Source: Candidatus Woesearchaeota archaeon (lineage in GTDB: Archaea > Nanobdellota > Nanobdellia > SCGC-AAA011-G17 > UBA489). From it: 46,413 nucleotides of DNA. How positions within the stretch are numbered: the first letter of the stretch is position 1; each line of letters opens with the position of its first letter. The translations under genes were made by a program, and so were the position numbers. The notes below the pieces were generated by a model. The model had not been told where the DNA came from, ran no database searches, and worked only from the letters and a program-made list of their open reading frames with translations. The stretch covers positions 65,323-111,735 of the forward strand of contig JABIKK010000011.1 in NCBI GenBank assembly GCA_018655015.1, given 5' to 3'. Below, in pieces: positions 37,972-46,027 of this stretch.

Positions 37972-38244
37972 TTATATCCTTATTTTCTTTTTGAGCCGTT
38001 CTTCGGGTCTGCCCTGGAGAACTTCTCCTTCGATCGTGATTGTTTTTCCTTCGATTTTTGTTTTTATTGTAACTTGTTTTTTGACAAGTTTTTTTGTTTC
38101 ATTGTTTGTTTCTATGATCAGCATGTTTTTGGTTTCATCGATGACTTTTCCCTTGATCCCTATTAGGGTGGGATTGTCAGCGTCGATTACTTCCAACTCC
38201 TTGCCGATGAGCTCAAGTCTTGGTATATCCCTTGTTTTTTGCAT
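37972..38244 (-). CDS. rnp1: Ribonuclease P protein component 1 (Rpp29/Pop4)
   Basis: ELIGKELEVIDADNPTLIGIKGKVIDETKNMLIIET; conserved position between SUI1 and uS17. Confidence 0.88.
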   Translation of the reverse strand: MQKTRDIPRLELIGKELEVIDADNPTLIGIKGKVIDETKNMLIIETNNETKKLVKKQVTIKTKIEGKTITIEGEVLQGRPEERLKKKIRI

Positions 38245-38246
38245 GT

Positions 38247-38549
38247 TTAGTCTATGGATCCTTTGTCAAATCCCATGTTAACGAGTTCTTCTTTTACCCG
38301 TCTTTTGTGATCTCCTTGAAGTTCGACCTTGTCTTTCTTCACGGTCCCACCACATGCAAGCTTTGATTTGAGCTTTTTTGCAACGTCTTTGATATCGATT
38401 GATTTGATGTCAAAACCGCTTATGACTGTGATCATTTTTCCGAACTTCCTTTTCTCAAGAACAATTTTTATTCTTTGTTCTCCCTTGGCAATGTTTTCCC
38501 AAACATCAAGTTCTTTTGGAAGCCCAGTTATCGGGTCTCTTTCAATCAT
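38247..38549 (-). CDS. Translation initiation factor aIF1 (SUI1)
   Basis: [43 protein letters not shown]...[27 protein letters not shown]. Confidence 0.95.
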
Positions 38550-38815
38550 TATTTTTTCTTTTTTTCCTCCTTTTTGATTGTTTTCGAATTTGATTTTTTA
38601 ACAACTTCTTTTGGTTGATTTTTCTTTTGTGTTTTGAAAGTATGAATCCTTGCTATTGCTTTTCTTGTTGCCTTAACTAATCCTGGATTTTCAGGAGGAG
38701 TTCCACTTGATTTTTGCATGTTTAATTTCATTAGTTCTTTTCTTAAATCGGTGTATTGTTTGTCTAACTGCTCTATTGTCATCTTTGCAAGTTCCTTTTT
38801 TTTTGCAAGAGCCAT
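38549..38815 (-). CDS. rpl29: 50S ribosomal protein L29 (uL29)
   Basis: [51 protein letters not shown]. Confidence 0.92.
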
Positions 38816-38816
38816 C

Positions 38817-39701
38817 TTATTTTTTATCCTCTACTTCTTCTTTAGGAGCTTCTTCTTTTGGTTGCTCTTTAACTTCTTCCTTAACTTCAGCTACAGGTTT
38901 TGGTTCTTCCTTAACTGGTTCTGGTTTGGGCTCTGCTTTTGGAGCTTCATTTACTACTTTTTTAGTTGTCTTTTTAACAACTTTTTTTGTAGGCTCTTCT
39001 GTTTTCTCTATTACTTCTACACCATCAACTGAAGAAACTTTTACAGTCTCATCTGCTATAACTTCATTGAATTCTCCTTCTTCCACTTGCGGTTTCTTGA
39101 ATTCTTCTTTTATCTCAAGTTGTTTATCTAATAGTACAATGTCTGGAGTCATAATTCTAACCATGATTCCTACAGTGCCCATTTTAGTTGTGAAATTAAC
39201 ACTCTTCTTGCTAATCTTGGATTCGTTGATATCTCCTGATTTCTTCAAATAACCAGCTGAGAATCTCCACGATCTAGCCCTTGCACTTGGAATTTTGCCT
39301 GAAAGTACTACTTCAGCCCCAATTGCCCCGGAGTCCATAATATCTTGTAATACTCTGTAACCAATTGACTTGAATCTCTTTTGACCAAATCTTTCAATGC
39401 TTGCAGCAATTCTATCTGCAACATAATGAACATCTAACATCGGAGTAGGTATTTCTCCAATTTCTAGTTGCGGATTTTCTAATTTGTATTTGTTTTTTAG
39501 TAATAATGTTAATTTCTTTATGTTCTCGCCTTTTTTACCAACAACGATTCCAGGACGTGTTGTGTAAACAATAACGTTTTCTCCGAGAGGTGTTCTTCTT
39601 ATCTCAATATGGGAATATCCAGTCCTATTGAAAATTCTACCAATGTGTTCCTGAATTTGGAACTCCTTCAATTTTTGATTTACAAATTGTCTTTCAATCA
39701 T
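38817..39701 (-). CDS. rps3: 30S ribosomal protein S3 (uS3) with KEP-rich C-terminal tail
   Basis: KH domain GENVIVYTTRPGIVVGKKGENIKKLT...; long EAPKAEPKPEPVKEEPKPV tail. Confidence 0.95.
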   Translation of the reverse strand: MIERQFVNQKLKEFQIQEHIGRIFNRTGYSHIEIRRTPLGENVIVYTTRPGIVVGKKGENIKKLTLLLKNKYKLENPQLEIGEIPTPMLDVHYVADRIAASIERFGQKRFKSIGYRVLQDIMDSGAIGAEVVLSGKIPSARARSWRFSAGYLKKSGDINESKISKKSVNFTTKMGTVGIMVRIMTPDIVLLDKQLEIKEEFKKPQVEEGEFNEVIADETVKVSSVDGVEVIEKTEEPTKKVVKKTTKKVVNEAPKAEPKPEPVKEEPKPVAEVKEEVKEQPKEEAPKEEVEDKK

Positions 39702-40243
39702 TGTTTAACCTCTGGTTTAGTTTCTTGTTTGGGCTCTGCTTTTGGAGCTTCCTTTATTTCTGCCTTTGGAGCTTCTATTTTTGGAGCTTCTTTTTTAGCA
39801 GGTGCTTTCTTTTTTTCATTAATTTTTTCTTCGAGTGTAATTTCTAAATGTGTTCTCTTGGTTTTTGTTCTTCTTTGTCTTCCGTAATGCCAAGGTCTTG
39901 AAGCAAGATTTGGGATTATTGAAGAGATGATTAATGCATCTGTGTCTAATCCTTTGTTTTGTGCATTAGCTTCTGCGGAATTTAATAACTTGATTACTTC
40001 TTTTGTTGCATTTATTGGATATCTTCCTGAGGAAAGATCTCCTTTTCTGTGCCCAATTTTCTTGTTATGCACTGTGAATGGAACTGCAACCTCGAACTCT
40101 AGCACTTTTGCTAGTTTTTCTTTAGCCCAGCTAAGCTTTTTTCCTCTAATGTACTTGCTTATTACAATTGCATGCTTTGTCGAAATAGCTATGTTCCTTC
40201 CAACAACCTTTGCACTGTGCATATCTGTTTTCATTTTAATCAT
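39698..40243 (-). CDS. rpl22: 50S ribosomal protein L22 (uL22) with KEAPKAE tail
   Basis: KHAIVISKYIRGKKLSWAKEKLAKVLE...NATKEVIKLLNSAEANAQNKGLDTDALII...RPWHYGRQRRTKTKRTHLEI. Confidence 0.94.
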   Translation of the reverse strand: MIKMKTDMHSAKVVGRNIAISTKHAIVISKYIRGKKLSWAKEKLAKVLEFEVAVPFTVHNKKIGHRKGDLSSGRYPINATKEVIKLLNSAEANAQNKGLDTDALIISSIIPNLASRPWHYGRQRRTKTKRTHLEITLEEKINEKKKAPAKKEAPKIEAPKAEIKEAPKAEPKQETKPEVKQ

Positions 40244-40644
40244 TTAGCCTTTGAAGCTGAAGCTGTACTCGATTTAGTTGCTCCTACTCCTGCTGATCCA
40301 TGCGATAGTCTCTTTCTTGTTTGAGATAATTCTCCAAGGAATAAACCAAGCATTTCTTCAGTAATTACTATTTCATGGAACTCTTTTCCATTGTGAACAC
40401 CAATCTTTAGTCCAACCATTTGTGGTAGAACTGGAATAACTCTTAGGTGTGTTTTGATAGGCTTCTTTCTTTTGCCTTCATTTGTTAATCTTATTTTTTC
40501 AAGTAAGGGTTCTGCACTCTTCAAGACATCTCTAGATATTGTTCTTCTCTTTCTGGAAGTTAGTAACTTTGCAAATTCCTTTACGTCCATCTGCTTTAGT
40601 TCTGCTAAAGTTTTACCCTTGAATCTAAATTCGTCATCATCCAT
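40240..40644 (-). CDS. rps19: 30S ribosomal protein S19 (uS19)
   Basis: IKTHLRVIPVLPQMVGLKIGVHNGKEFHEIVITEEMLGLFLGELSQTRKRLSHGSAGVGATKSS. Confidence 0.95.
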   Translation of the reverse strand: MDDDEFRFKGKTLAELKQMDVKEFAKLLTSRKRRTISRDVLKSAEPLLEKIRLTNEGKRKKPIKTHLRVIPVLPQMVGLKIGVHNGKEFHEIVITEEMLGLFLGELSQTRKRLSHGSAGVGATKSSTASASKAK

Positions 40645-40645
40645 T

Positions 40646-41371
40646 TTATCTCTTCTTACCCGTCCTTCTTGCTTTTATTTTACCTACGTTTCTACCCGGT
40701 GGAGCGAATCTTGGTGCTGTAAGAGGTTTACCTGCATGACGACCACGTCCTGATCCGAATGGATGGTCTACAGCGTTCATTGCTACACCTGATGTACGAG
40801 GATAAAGTTTACCACGTGCTTTCATTATGTGGAATTTTGTACCTGCTTTAACTAGTGGTTTTTCTTTCTTACCTGCCCCTGCAATTCTTCCAATTGTTGC
40901 ACGACATTGAGGGTTGAATGTTTTCTTCTTCTTTGAAGGCAGGATTACTACAACGCCTTTTTCTGAAATTGTTAATAGTTTTGCGCCTGCTCCTGAAGCC
41001 CTAACCATTGAGCCACCATCTGCTGGCTTTGATTCGATATTTGAAATCATTGTTCCTTCTGGAATGCTTCCTAATGGAAGTGTACTTCCTAATGTAGGTT
41101 GACCTTTAGCTCCGGAGTAGACCGTGTCTCCAACTTTCATTCCATTTGGTGCGAATACGTAATTGTATTCTCCATTATCGTATTTTATGATTGCAATTGG
41201 TGCAGTGTGACCTTTACAATGTGTTAAGTCTTTTACTACCCCTGTTAATGTTCCTTCTTTTTCTGTTGAATCGTAAGTTCTATGTTTAATTTGAATGTTC
41301 CATCTGTGAGAGTGAGCACTATATGTGGAAGTTCCTCTTCCCCGTCTTTGTGAAATTAATCTCTTACCCAT
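40646..41371 (-). CDS. rpl2: 50S ribosomal protein L2 (uL2)
   Basis: LISQRRGRGTSTYSAHSHRW...GVAMNAVDHPFGSGRGRHAGKP. Confidence 0.96.
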   Translation of the reverse strand: MGKRLISQRRGRGTSTYSAHSHRWNIQIKHRTYDSTEKEGTLTGVVKDLTHCKGHTAPIAIIKYDNGEYNYVFAPNGMKVGDTVYSGAKGQPTLGSTLPLGSIPEGTMISNIESKPADGGSMVRASGAGAKLLTISEKGVVVILPSKKKKTFNPQCRATIGRIAGAGKKEKPLVKAGTKFHIMKARGKLYPRTSGVAMNAVDHPFGSGRGRHAGKPLTAPRFAPPGRNVGKIKARRTGKKR

Positions 41372-41372
41372 C

Positions 41373-41636
41373 TTATAACATTCCCATTTGTGTTGCGATA
41401 TCTATTGCCGGAGTTTCCGGTGATAGTTTAACATAAGCTTTTTTCTTTCCCGTAGGCATAATAGTTGTGTTTACTGCCTCAACTTTAATACTAAATATTT
41501 TTTCAAGTGATTCTTTTATTTCTTTCTTTGTTGCTGACTTTGCAACTGAAAAGACTAGCTTGTTTTCTGATTCCATAAGTCTAACTGCTTTTTCCGTGGA
41601 TTTCGGGAAATTGATTATGCTGTATGGATCTTTCAT
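41373..41636 (-). CDS. rpl23: 50S ribosomal protein L23 (uL23)
   Basis: INFPKSTEKAVRLMESENKLVFSVAKSATKKEIKESLEKIFSIKVEAVNTTIMPTGKKKAYVKL. Confidence 0.94.
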   Translation of the reverse strand: MKDPYSIINFPKSTEKAVRLMESENKLVFSVAKSATKKEIKESLEKIFSIKVEAVNTTIMPTGKKKAYVKLSPETPAIDIATQMGML

Positions 41637-42490
41637 TTCTTAATCTCCTTCTTCTTAACTTCTTTCTTTGGTTTTTCTTTGATTGATTTAAAAAATAATT
41701 TGTTTTTTTCCATTTGGTTAATTGCTTCTTCTGAAAAGATAGTCATTCTTCCTGGTTGTCCTCCAGGTGCTAGTAAGTTAACATTTAGGTTCCTTACTTC
41801 ACAAACATCAACGCCTTGAATATTTATTGCTGAATCAGTTAGTGGACAGTTTTTGGACACTACAAATAGTGGACCTTTTTTTGTCCTGTACTTTCTGTTT
41901 CTCATTTTACCTCTTCCAGGCCTTACTTTTCTAACTGAAACTCTGCTTAACTCATCTTTAAGGCTTAGTTTTAGTAAGAATGATTTTACATCCTTAGTTT
42001 TGTTTAGTGATTCAACTTTAGAATCAACTACAGATACTAGTTCCTTGAATCTGTGCCCTCTTGCTTGAACTAAATCTGGAATTATTGTTGAAGAAATTGC
42101 TGATCTGATTGCAAGTCTCCTTTCATTTTTGTTAATATCTTTTGAACGATCTTGATCTGCTTTAGGTGGATGTGCACGTCTTCCTGAAACTGTTCCAGGT
42201 GCAAATGCTCCGGTGTAACCGAATTGTGTACCTCTTCTCCATGAATGTTTTCTTGGAACTCTAGACATACCATGTCCGTATGAACCTTTGAAAGCTTTAC
42301 GTCTTCTAGACATTTCAGCTGCAGCCCTAATACCTGCTCCAGGATATGCCCCGTAAGGTTGTTGTAAATTAGCTTCAACTACTTCGTTAGCTTTCTTTAT
42401 TAGATCTGGTCTAATTGATTCAGAGAATTGCTTTGGTAAGTTTACACTCTTAGATTTCTTTCCATCCATACCATAAATGTCTGCTTTCAT
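41633..42490 (-). CDS. rpl4: 50S ribosomal protein L4 (uL4)
   Basis: GAYPGAGIRAAAEMSRRRKAFKGSYGHGMSRVPRKHSWRRGTQFGYTGAFAPGTVSGRRAHPPK. Confidence 0.95.
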   Translation of the reverse strand: MKADIYGMDGKKSKSVNLPKQFSESIRPDLIKKANEVVEANLQQPYGAYPGAGIRAAAEMSRRRKAFKGSYGHGMSRVPRKHSWRRGTQFGYTGAFAPGTVSGRRAHPPKADQDRSKDINKNERRLAIRSAISSTIIPDLVQARGHRFKELVSVVDSKVESLNKTKDVKSFLLKLSLKDELSRVSVRKVRPGRGKMRNRKYRTKKGPLFVVSKNCPLTDSAINIQGVDVCEVRNLNVNLLAPGGQPGRMTIFSEEAINQMEKNKLFFKSIKEKPKKEVKKKEIKK

Positions 42491-43440
42491 TGTTTATTCT
42501 CCGTACTTATCTTTACAACTTCGTAAACTTGAGGTTTCTTTTTTACTCTTTCTGGAAATGTAAGAACAATTGGTCTTTTTGCAGAACCTGCAATTGAACC
42601 TTTGATTAATAATGCGTCGTTCTTTACTAAACCATAATGTTTAATTCCGCCATTTTGGTTTACTTCTTCTGCTTTTGCGATTTTGATTAGTAACTTATTG
42701 TATTCTGTTCTTTGATGGTAACCCATTTTACCCGCATGTGCAATCTGTCCTGCTGCAACTCTCTTAGGAGTCCATGCTCCAAGGTTTCCAGGTCCACGTT
42801 TTGTTTTCTCTGATTTGTGTTGTCTTATTTTAACTCCAAATCTCTTAACAGGTCCTTGGTATCCTTTTCCTTTTGTTAAGGAGTGAACATCGAGTAATTG
42901 CCCTTCATCAAATATTTCTGAAACAGGGAATGATTCTTTTTTTAGAAGTTCTTGAGCTATTGTTAATTTTTCTTCGGAATTTTTACCTCCAAGACACATT
43001 TCAAAAATGTCTGGAGTTTTTTTAGAAGTGGAAGTTTTTTTAGTTTCGGTGTAAATTGTTAGTCTGATGTCGTCGTAAGCTTCTGGTATTTTTCCAGACT
43101 TACCATGTTTGATTTGTTTGCTAACTTTGTCTGAAAATATTTCTGATAAAAGTTTGGTTTGAGTTGTTGTTTTTTTGTAAAATCTTAAAGAAAGAGGTTT
43201 TATCGGTGGACAATCTATAATTGTCGCTGGAACGGTAATGATCTGTGATTTTGTTAATGATGCTGGATTATTATCCCTTACTTGGATGTGAGTCATTCCT
43301 GCTTTGTATCCTAAAAATGCTAAAGGTTTGATGTCATTTAATTTAGCAAAATTTCTAACTCTTGCTACTGCTTTTTTAGCCCTCTTTCTAGGCCAAAACT
43401 GCTTACTTCCTCTCCTCGGATTATTATGTACTTTTCCCAT
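42487..43440 (-). CDS. rpl3: 50S ribosomal protein L3 (uL3)
   Basis: RRGSKQFWPRKRAKKAVARVRNF...LGYKAGMTHI...VHSLTKGKGYQGPVKRFGVKIRQHKSEKTKRGPGNLGAWTPKRV. Confidence 0.96.
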   Translation of the reverse strand: MGKVHNNPRRGSKQFWPRKRAKKAVARVRNFAKLNDIKPLAFLGYKAGMTHIQVRDNNPASLTKSQIITVPATIIDCPPIKPLSLRFYKKTTTQTKLLSEIFSDKVSKQIKHGKSGKIPEAYDDIRLTIYTETKKTSTSKKTPDIFEMCLGGKNSEEKLTIAQELLKKESFPVSEIFDEGQLLDVHSLTKGKGYQGPVKRFGVKIRQHKSEKTKRGPGNLGAWTPKRVAAGQIAHAGKMGYHQRTEYNKLLIKIAKAEEVNQNGGIKHYGLVKNDALLIKGSIAGSAKRPIVLTFPERVKKKPQVYEVVKISTENKQ

Positions 43441-43482
43441 TTTTTTGTGTTAATTTTTTCGATTTTCGCTTTTTAATGTTTG

Positions 43483-43491: not shown

Positions 43492-43534
43492 CTAATAATC
43501 CTCTCTAGAATCAGCGACTTACTTAGGCTTACAG

Positions 43535-43552
43535 TTTACCATTTCTGGTAAA
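43535..43552 (-). promoter_or_regulatory. Perfect hairpin/palindrome in uL3 superoperon leader (GAAA loop on RNA)
   Basis: Minus strand TTTACCA-GAAA-TGGTAAA, 7-bp stem. Confidence 0.6.
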
Positions 43553-43554
43553 AT

Positions 43555-43570
43555 TTGTCATTTCTGACAA
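43555..43570 (-). promoter_or_regulatory. Second tandem hairpin/palindrome in uL3 superoperon leader (GAAA loop on RNA)
   Basis: Minus strand TTGTCA-GAAA-TGACAA, 6-bp stem, 2 nt from the next hairpin. Confidence 0.6.
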
Positions 43571-43615
43571 TAACGGTTTTTTTCTCAGTAGGGTATGTGA
43601 AAGGCGAAATCGGGG

Positions 43616-43623
43616 TTTTTAAA
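43616..43623 (-). promoter_or_regulatory. Putative TATA box of the uL3 superoperon
   Basis: Minus strand TTTAAAAA (context CCTTTAAAAACCCC); predicted TSS ~43592 puts both hairpins in the transcript. Confidence 0.4.
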
Positions 43624-43967: not shown

Positions 43968-44489
43968 ATGGTAAAAATAAAAGATAGATTTGCAAGAACC
44001 CTGCCAATGATTCTCCAAGATGGTGTAACGCTTGCTGATGGAAGCAATAGCTCAGTGTTAGTTGATGTTCTTAAAGCTGATGAAATCTATAGTCGATCTG
44101 TAGAAACAGTTATGGGCCATGGGGAAGTTTTTGTTAATGGCCGGTGGGTACCACTAAAAAAGAACTTGGAAGGTAAAACAAGGTACGTTGAGGCAAAACA
44201 ACATGTAAGGTCTGTTGAAGGTCTTTCTGATCCGATTGTTAATGCAGTGGTTCACTTAAAGGATCATCACTACGATATTCTAAGAATGAATTCTGATTCT
44301 ATATCTTTGGGCAGAGATTATAGGCGTACAATAGGGTTACTTCAAGAATCAGGAGTGGTAAGGCCCTTTGAACATGTAAAGGGTTTAGGTGCAGAAGATA
44401 CTGCAGATGTGATGGGTCATCTTGCAATAGAAAACGCCATTGTTGGAGCGATTGCATTAAAACTAAAATATGACAAAGCCGTTGATTAA
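43968..44489 (+). CDS. Hypothetical soluble protein, unknown family
   Basis: 173-aa ORF with TATA-like element upstream; convergent 4-nt overlap with the next gene. Confidence 0.75.
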   Translation: MVKIKDRFARTLPMILQDGVTLADGSNSSVLVDVLKADEIYSRSVETVMGHGEVFVNGRWVPLKKNLEGKTRYVEAKQHVRSVEGLSDPIVNAVVHLKDHHYDILRMNSDSISLGRDYRRTIGLLQESGVVRPFEHVKGLGAEDTADVMGHLAIENAIVGAIALKLKYDKAVD

Positions 44490-44971: not shown

Positions 44972-45508
44972 TTATGCAACTAACGATTCGGGTAAGACTT
45001 TTCTCAACTTTTTTCTTATTCTGTAGCCCACTTGTTTAGCTGCCTGTGTTTTCAAACCACGGGAATTACCAATTGTTTCATAGGACATATATCTGAAATA
45101 GTGATCTTGGATTAAAGTCCTATCTTCTAATGTTAGTACGTCTAATGCAGAGTTTAGCATCTCACTAGCTTCGGCTTCTTCAGGAGTAATGTTTGGTTCA
45201 CTTGTATCTTGAAACCATTCTGGATTATTTAATGAGGGGGTTCTTTTGAGAATACCTCTTTTCATATATGCTACAAAAGTATTTCTTGCAGTGGTAACTA
45301 CATAACCACTTATTCTTTCTCTGAATAAATCTCTTTTTTTACTAATATTCAAAACTCGCAATACTGTTTCTTGGACAATGTCATCAATTACATTTCGATC
45401 TTTATATCCCTTTGACCTCACATAGAATTCAACAGTGGTTGTTAATTTTTTTAATGTACTCACGAGATAATCTTCAACTTCTCCTTGAGACATAGGGGAT
45501 CTTTTCAC
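44972..45508 (-). CDS. Sigma-70 (ECF-like) family protein, divergent
   Basis: Region 2-like NVIDDIVQETVLRVLN...ISGYVVTTARNTFVAYMKR; region 4-like ALDVLTLEDRTLIQDHYFRYMSYETIGNSRGLKTQAAKQVGYRIRKKLRK; GTG 45508 or ATG 45493 start. Confidence 0.78.
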   Translation of the reverse strand: MKRSPMSQGEVEDYLVSTLKKLTTTVEFYVRSKGYKDRNVIDDIVQETVLRVLNISKKRDLFRERISGYVVTTARNTFVAYMKRGILKRTPSLNNPEWFQDTSEPNITPEEAEASEMLNSALDVLTLEDRTLIQDHYFRYMSYETIGNSRGLKTQAAKQVGYRIRKKLRKVLPESLVA

Positions 45509-45532: not shown

Positions 45533-46027
45533 TTAAACTTTTTCAAAATTACCTCGAATTTCGAGATATCTTTCCCTTAAACGGTTTTTTGCACGATGAA
45601 GTCTTTGTCTAGTGTTTGGAATTGAGAGGTTTAGTTTTTTTGCAATTTCTGATTGAGGAATTCCTTGGTTGAAGTATAGGTCTATAATTACACCATAATC
45701 TTTGGGCAATCTTTCAAAGCTTTTGTTAATTAGTTCGGATTCCTGAAGATTTATTCCCTGAGAGATATCTGGAGCACATAATCCCTCTAACGAAGAACCA
45801 TGTAATCTTTTTGTCCTATGCCAATCTACTAGGGCATTGGATGTAATTCTTGCTACCCAGTTTTCCGGATTTTTTACTTGAATACCTTGTGCCAATGAAC
45901 TGTAAACTTTTAAAAAAACATTTTGGAAAACATCATCTGCGTCAAAAGGAGATCCCAGCCTACTGACTATTCTTGCGTAGGTGTTGTCTTTATGATTGTG
46001 ATATACTTCCTCAAATGATAAACTCAT
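45533..46027 (-). CDS. Sigma-70 (ECF) family RNA polymerase sigma factor-like protein
   Basis: Region 2 FDADDVFQNVFLKVYSSL...NPENWVARITSNALVDWHR; region 4 FERLPKDYGVIIDLYFNQGIPQSEIAKKLNLSIPNTRQRLHRAKNRLRE. Confidence 0.9.
   Translation of the reverse strand: MSLSFEEVYHNHKDNTYARIVSRLGSPFDADDVFQNVFLKVYSSLAQGIQVKNPENWVARITSNALVDWHRTKRLHGSSLEGLCAPDISQGINLQESELINKSFERLPKDYGVIIDLYFNQGIPQSEIAKKLNLSIPNTRQRLHRAKNRLRERYLEIRGNFEKV

Follow-up and report, generated by a model that had tools for sequence, protein, structure and literature searches.

A candidate ribosomal protein leader upstream of the uL3 superoperon in an order of Nanoarchaeia, and the place of tandem GAAA hairpins within it

Introduction

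What is the role of two GAAA-capped hairpins that stand side by side in front of the uL3 ribosomal protein operon of a Candidatus Woesearchaeota archaeon? The window, meaning the whole stretch of 46,413 nucleotides analysed here, reads TTGTCA-GAAA-TGACAA, AT, TTTACCA-GAAA-TGGTAAA on its minus strand from 43570 to 43535, forming two perfect hairpins 2 nt apart; this sequence, reported in a preliminary description of the locus, was confirmed. The same description offered two readings of the pair, as part of a ribosomal protein leader RNA or as a double-stranded operator. Little is known of how archaea balance their ribosomal proteins against rRNA, and both readings were examined by comparison with related genomes.

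Genomic context of the hairpins

The uL3 operon diverges from an archaeal histone gene, identified by Pfam. In relatives, the region ahead of uL3 comprises, from 5' to 3', ACCCUACUGA (block A), a variable hairpin arm (P1) and AGYCGCUGAUUCUAGA (block B). The corresponding features of the window are listed below.

43616..43623, minus strand: TATA-like box TTTAAAAA of the uL3-operon promoter, assigned from the TTTATA spacing in relatives
43585..43594, minus strand: block A, ACCCTACTGA, where transcription is predicted to begin; conserved in the 28-sequence alignment A2 and represented in model R1
43571..43584, minus strand: A-rich linker and CCGTTA before the P1 arm, conserved within the genus
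43555..43570, minus strand: P1 hairpin copy 1, TTGTCA-GAAA-TGACAA, with an A-U to C-G compensatory change in G001 and G002
43535..43552, minus strand: P1 hairpin copy 2, TTTACCA-GAAA-TGGTAAA, with three pairs changed on both sides within the genus
43520..43534, minus strand: linker with GTAAGCCTAAGTA from P1 to block B; GTAAGCCTA is kept in 5/5 genus members
43501..43519, minus strand: block B, AGTCGCTGATTCTAGAGAG, which shows the strongest conservation in the leader, assigned from matches to the 13-mer CGCTGATTCTAGA in relatives
43470..43477, minus strand: possible weak proximal TATA-like box ATTAAAAA, 37 nt before the uL3 start, tentatively assigned
42487..43440, minus strand: uL3 (rplC), the first gene of the operon (Pfam PF00297)
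37972..42490, minus strand: remainder of the operon, with uL4, uL23, uL2, uS19, uL22, uS3, uL29, SUI1 and RNase P p29 (Pfam)

We infer a transcription start near 43594; on that basis the hairpins would span about +24 to +59, 95 nt before the uL3 ATG (43440), in agreement with the earlier positioning of the pair in a leader that follows the TATA box. The interval 43594-43441 (minus strand) is best explained as the untranslated 5' leader with which the uL3-uL4-uL23-uL2 ribosomal superoperon begins. The fold of the 152-nt window leader contains both hairpins, with a z value of -1.9.

Elsewhere in the window, a 173-aa open reading frame at 43968-44489 (plus strand) adjoins the histone gene and has no Pfam or NCBIfam match. 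Two neighbouring genes at 45533-46027 and 44972-45508 (both minus strand) encode bacterial-type ECF sigma-70-like proteins in this archaeal genome (TIGR02937, E 2.8e-21 and 8.3e-15, respectively). A relative of the first, at 32-35% identity, occurs in 2/4 other genus members and in none elsewhere among 61 genomes.

Conservation and distribution of the leader

Among the 61 genomes searched, uL3 was found in 57. In relatives, 30-33 nt separate a TTTATA element from the C of CCCTACTG downstream of it, indicating a fixed spacing between TATA box and leader, and 20 of 22 genome-wide matches to the combined arrangement of TTTATA and block A are uL3 leaders. The block B 13-mer gave 17 matches in the 61 genomes and 0 in the control. 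Of the 17, 16 immediately precede uL3; the remaining one, in G040, was rejected as a leader because it falls by chance within the coding sequence of an unrelated gene. The spacer between blocks A and B ranges from 4 to 75 nt. The distance from the end of block B to the uL3 start codon is as short as 10-20 nt in some species, which would suit control of initiation. Because blocks A and B are near-invariant across families, covariation cannot test pairing there. The fold of the window leader suggested that block B might pair further downstream, but a test on leaders lacking the P3 hairpin described below gave no support for such pairing (p = 0.98).

Two models were used to trace the leader more widely: R1, comprising the sequence of blocks A and B only, and R2, a covariance model of P3. 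The leader was found in at least 71 of the 103 genomes of the order, comprising 48 by R1 (E <= 0.01, one noise match dropped) and 23 more by R2 (E < 1e-4). The several hundred other genomes of the class that were scanned yielded noise only, with best E values, per genome, of 5e-4 for R2 and 3e-3 for R1. All 30 loci fetched in the order-wide R1 search have uL3 downstream on the same strand, and so do the loci fetched with R2 (L166 by reading the frame). Wherever the fetched sequence extends far enough, uL4 directly follows uL3 in essentially every locus. No other gene context occurs among the model matches, the leader being seen before the uL3 operon only. Public contigs of the same genus are Candidatus Woesearchaeota MAGs; the leader was not found in more distant, named public genomes labelled Woesearchaeota, so its range is a single order, not the Woesearchaeota as a whole.

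We are highly confident that a conserved RNA leader lies upstream of uL3 in this one order of Nanoarchaeia (DPANN). Its conservation and position, the pairing of P1, the covariation of P3 and the strict association with the uL3 operon are direct observations.

The P1 arm and the tandem hairpins of the window

The hairpin pair is unusual in its own surroundings: nowhere else in the window do two perfect hairpins (stem of at least 6, loop of 4) lie 6 nt or less apart, against 0.03 adjacent pairs, or 0.017 with identical loops, expected under a first-order Markov null. The GAAA loops belong to the GNRA tetraloop type and cap stems in both window copies as well as in G001, G002 and G004. G004 carries two near-identical hairpin copies in its spacer, which look like a tandem duplication, whereas the arm of G001 and G002 reads GTCC-GAAA-GGAU/C instead of the window stem sequences. 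G003 has neither hairpin, yet it keeps the leader and the flanks CCGTTA and GTAAGCC. Within the window genus the GAAA loops are kept in both hairpins while four stem pairs are changed on both sides, a comparison of five sequences only and hence of modest weight; the hairpins are absent from G003 and differ in sequence in G001 and G002.

In other families a hairpin whose sequence is unrelated occupies the P1 position, frequently with UUUAAUAAG after it, and in most families hairpins lie at the same place in the spacer. P1 arms pair with their own partners over 6.6 bp, compared with 4.4 bp with the arms of other genera, a difference reached in 0/100,000 permutations. Spacer folding across genera also exceeds that of shuffles overall, with a combined p-value that is too small since some genera were counted twice. 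From these comparisons the tandem GAAA hairpins are read as the window genus's local form of the conserved arm P1, which is itself variable and dispensable. The proposal of a ribosomal protein leader is accordingly retained in modified form: a covarying RNA does precede uL3 throughout the order, but its conserved parts in the window lie at 43585-43594 and 43501-43519, and the hairpins are not its core.

These comparisons bear on two further explanations. Hairpins that arose by chance and have no function might be looked for in an AT-rich window, and none occur in G003; this explanation is nevertheless extremely improbable given the 0.03 pairs expected, the compensatory changes within the genus, the recurrence of hairpins at the same position in most families and the outcome of the cross-genus arm-pairing test. 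The other explanation is an operator lying between the diverging promoters of uL3 and the histone gene, with a dimeric regulator bound at the palindromes; it draws on the perfection of the palindromes and on their shared core, TTnnCATTTCTGnnAA, whose two copies are 19 bp apart. Such an operator needs a sequence-conserved palindrome and further sites in the genome, and neither was found, leading to its rejection. Scanning of the 0.70-Mb genome for the exact core, as the preliminary description had suggested, returned just 2 copies, both at the hairpin sites; G003 keeps the leader without palindromes, G001 and G002 carry GTCC-GAAA-GGAC, and the leader is also retained at loci without a divergent histone gene. 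The operator is therefore very improbable, if slightly less so than chance.

The P3 hairpin

Many families have GGCGA and then a hairpin, P3, with the conserved loop NGANGUCUNUA, directly after block B or after a shortened version of the block that ends in UUCU. The stems differ greatly among leaders, including GCAGUUU/AAACUGC, GCAAGUU/AACUUGC, GCAACC/GGUUGC, GCGAAAC/GUUUCGC, GCAGGUU/AACCUGC and GCAUC/GAUGC. In alignment A3, 91% of P3 stem cells are paired, compared with 18-36% in slid controls, and 32 cells carry double changes against 11.6 when shuffled; the covariation score is 0.747 versus 0.321 for shuffles (0/500). A short stem of GYY with the GGC of GGCGA is possible, with standard or wobble pairs, in 23 of the 28 leaders examined. 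P3 is the part of the leader with the strongest evidence for an RNA, yet it is absent from the window's own leader and from the window genus.

Other hairpins were observed near P3. Family f4 leaders (L167-L169, L174, L175 and L179) have an extra single-bulge hairpin upstream of GGCGA, at the place expected for block B, in the form GUUCACAC..GUGUCGAAC or GGUUCGCAAC..GUUUGUAGAACC. Many leaders, among them L125, L134, L040, L025 and L058, have a further predicted hairpin of variable sequence right after P3, for example UACUUCUCGAAAGAGAAGUA.

Proximal promoters and two leader architectures

A TATA-like box lies 26-40 nt before the start codon in 18 of 35 leaders classed as lacking P3, against 1.3 expected from shuffles, and in 1 of 19 leaders with P3; about three leaders classed as lacking P3 actually have it, making the true contrast stronger. 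The class with proximal boxes takes in the weak ATTAAAAA/GTTAAAAA boxes of the window genus. Individual proximal TATA-like boxes, 30-38 nt before the uL3 ATG, were seen in L144 (G028), L052 (G050), L037 (G033), L138 (G079) and others. Their spacing suggests that transcription starting from a proximal box would give a leaderless or near-leaderless uL3 mRNA.

One speculative extension of these observations is a two-part, order-wide sensor in which the mRNA 5' end, ACCCUACUGA, would form half of the binding site, and in which lineages losing P3 would have swapped P3 control for a proximal promoter, producing a leaderless uL3 mRNA that escapes the sensor. This scenario is considered unlikely. The two architectures, with P3 or with a second promoter, nevertheless offer a natural experiment on the rewiring of such control.

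Proposed mechanism and candidate ligands

The leader probably lets the cell adjust its production of ribosomal proteins. In the proposed mechanism it would be transcribed together with uL3, and P1 would bring together two conserved, largely single-stranded segments, namely the 5'-terminal block A and block B. An operon protein present in excess, most likely uL4 or uL3, would bind these blocks, plus P3 where present, and the bound protein would lower uL3 translation initiation or destabilise the mRNA. The role of P1 would be that of a structural spacer, clamp or stabiliser and not of a binding site, which would explain its free sequence, duplication and loss. The account as a whole, a conserved cis-acting leader RNA of the uL3 operon that is bound by an operon protein and represses, is judged reasonably probable, and autoregulation by a ribosomal protein, taken by itself, is favoured somewhat more cautiously. 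The most likely candidate ligand is uL4, by bacterial analogy, or uL3, as the product of the first gene; uL3 and uL4 are adjacent in all loci, and split operons cannot separate the two candidates.

Resemblance to rRNA, a frequent trait of such leaders, was sought in several ways. Blocks A and B and P3, compared by fuzzy matching with the 16S and 23S regions of relatives, gave nothing consistent, the P3 model run unfiltered on rRNA loci reached a best E of 0.88, and antisense pairing between the blocks and rRNA extended over 9-12 bp including G-U pairs, about the level of chance. No 23S of the window genome itself could be located in the assembly.

This lack of detectable rRNA mimicry would fit a leader that is riboswitch-like or the target of a trans-acting factor (a metabolite, an Lsm/Hfq-like protein or a small RNA) in place of an operon ribosomal protein, and near-invariant single-stranded blocks combined with a variable arm are also the appearance of a small-ligand sensor. 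That reading is held to be rather unlikely, as the confinement of the leader to the uL3 operon is the classic distribution of a ribosomal protein leader. About equally unlikely is a constitutive 5'-UTR element that stabilises the mRNA or enhances translation without sensing. GAAA-capped hairpins near a 5' end are typical stabilisers and the sequence of P1 varies freely, as such an element would allow, but blocks A and B and the P3 loop are nearly invariant from family to family, which speaks for a specific partner.

Relation to known leaders and significance

Ribosomal protein leaders are recognised by a consistent 5' location before a ribosomal protein gene and by covarying structure. Here every strong match checked lies upstream of uL3, and covariation occurs in P3 and P1 of relatives and in the P1 copies of the window genus (five sequences). 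Similarity to an rRNA site, which is common but not required, was not found. A scan of the window leader and eight relatives' loci against Rfam gave no credible match, and the open-access literature searched contained no description of this leader or of any leader from Woesearchaeota or DPANN. By position and structure, the element is a new, previously uncatalogued r-leader candidate with a putative ligand.

Eckert and Weinberg (2020) reported 20 r-leader candidates, four of them novel archaeal ones (PMC7247131). Their Archaeoglobi L4 candidate, rated borderline by its authors and alone among the four in standing at this operon, is likewise an archaeal RNA located before uL3-uL4 (rplC-rplD) and derived from comparative genomics, but it belongs to another archaeal lineage (PMC7247131). 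It is the sole archaeal uL3-operon leader described in the literature searched, and comparison by its description gave no evidence of homology. The archaeal S15 and eL15 r-leaders are also covarying leaders of ribosomal protein mRNAs; they involve other genes and ligands and are described as potentially similar to the rRNA binding site (PMC7247131). In the present leader no such similarity was found. The bacterial S10 leader (E. coli and Firmicutes) also precedes an operon containing uL3, uL4, uL23 and uL2, and its proposed feedback by uL4 resembles that considered here. Its first gene is uS10, compared with uL3 in the present case, and the likeness lies in the operon only, with no Rfam match.

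A well-supported leader of the largest ribosomal protein operon in DPANN archaea with tiny genomes would provide a concrete RNA together with a short list of candidate protein ligands. It would also show that such control has been kept despite genome reduction.
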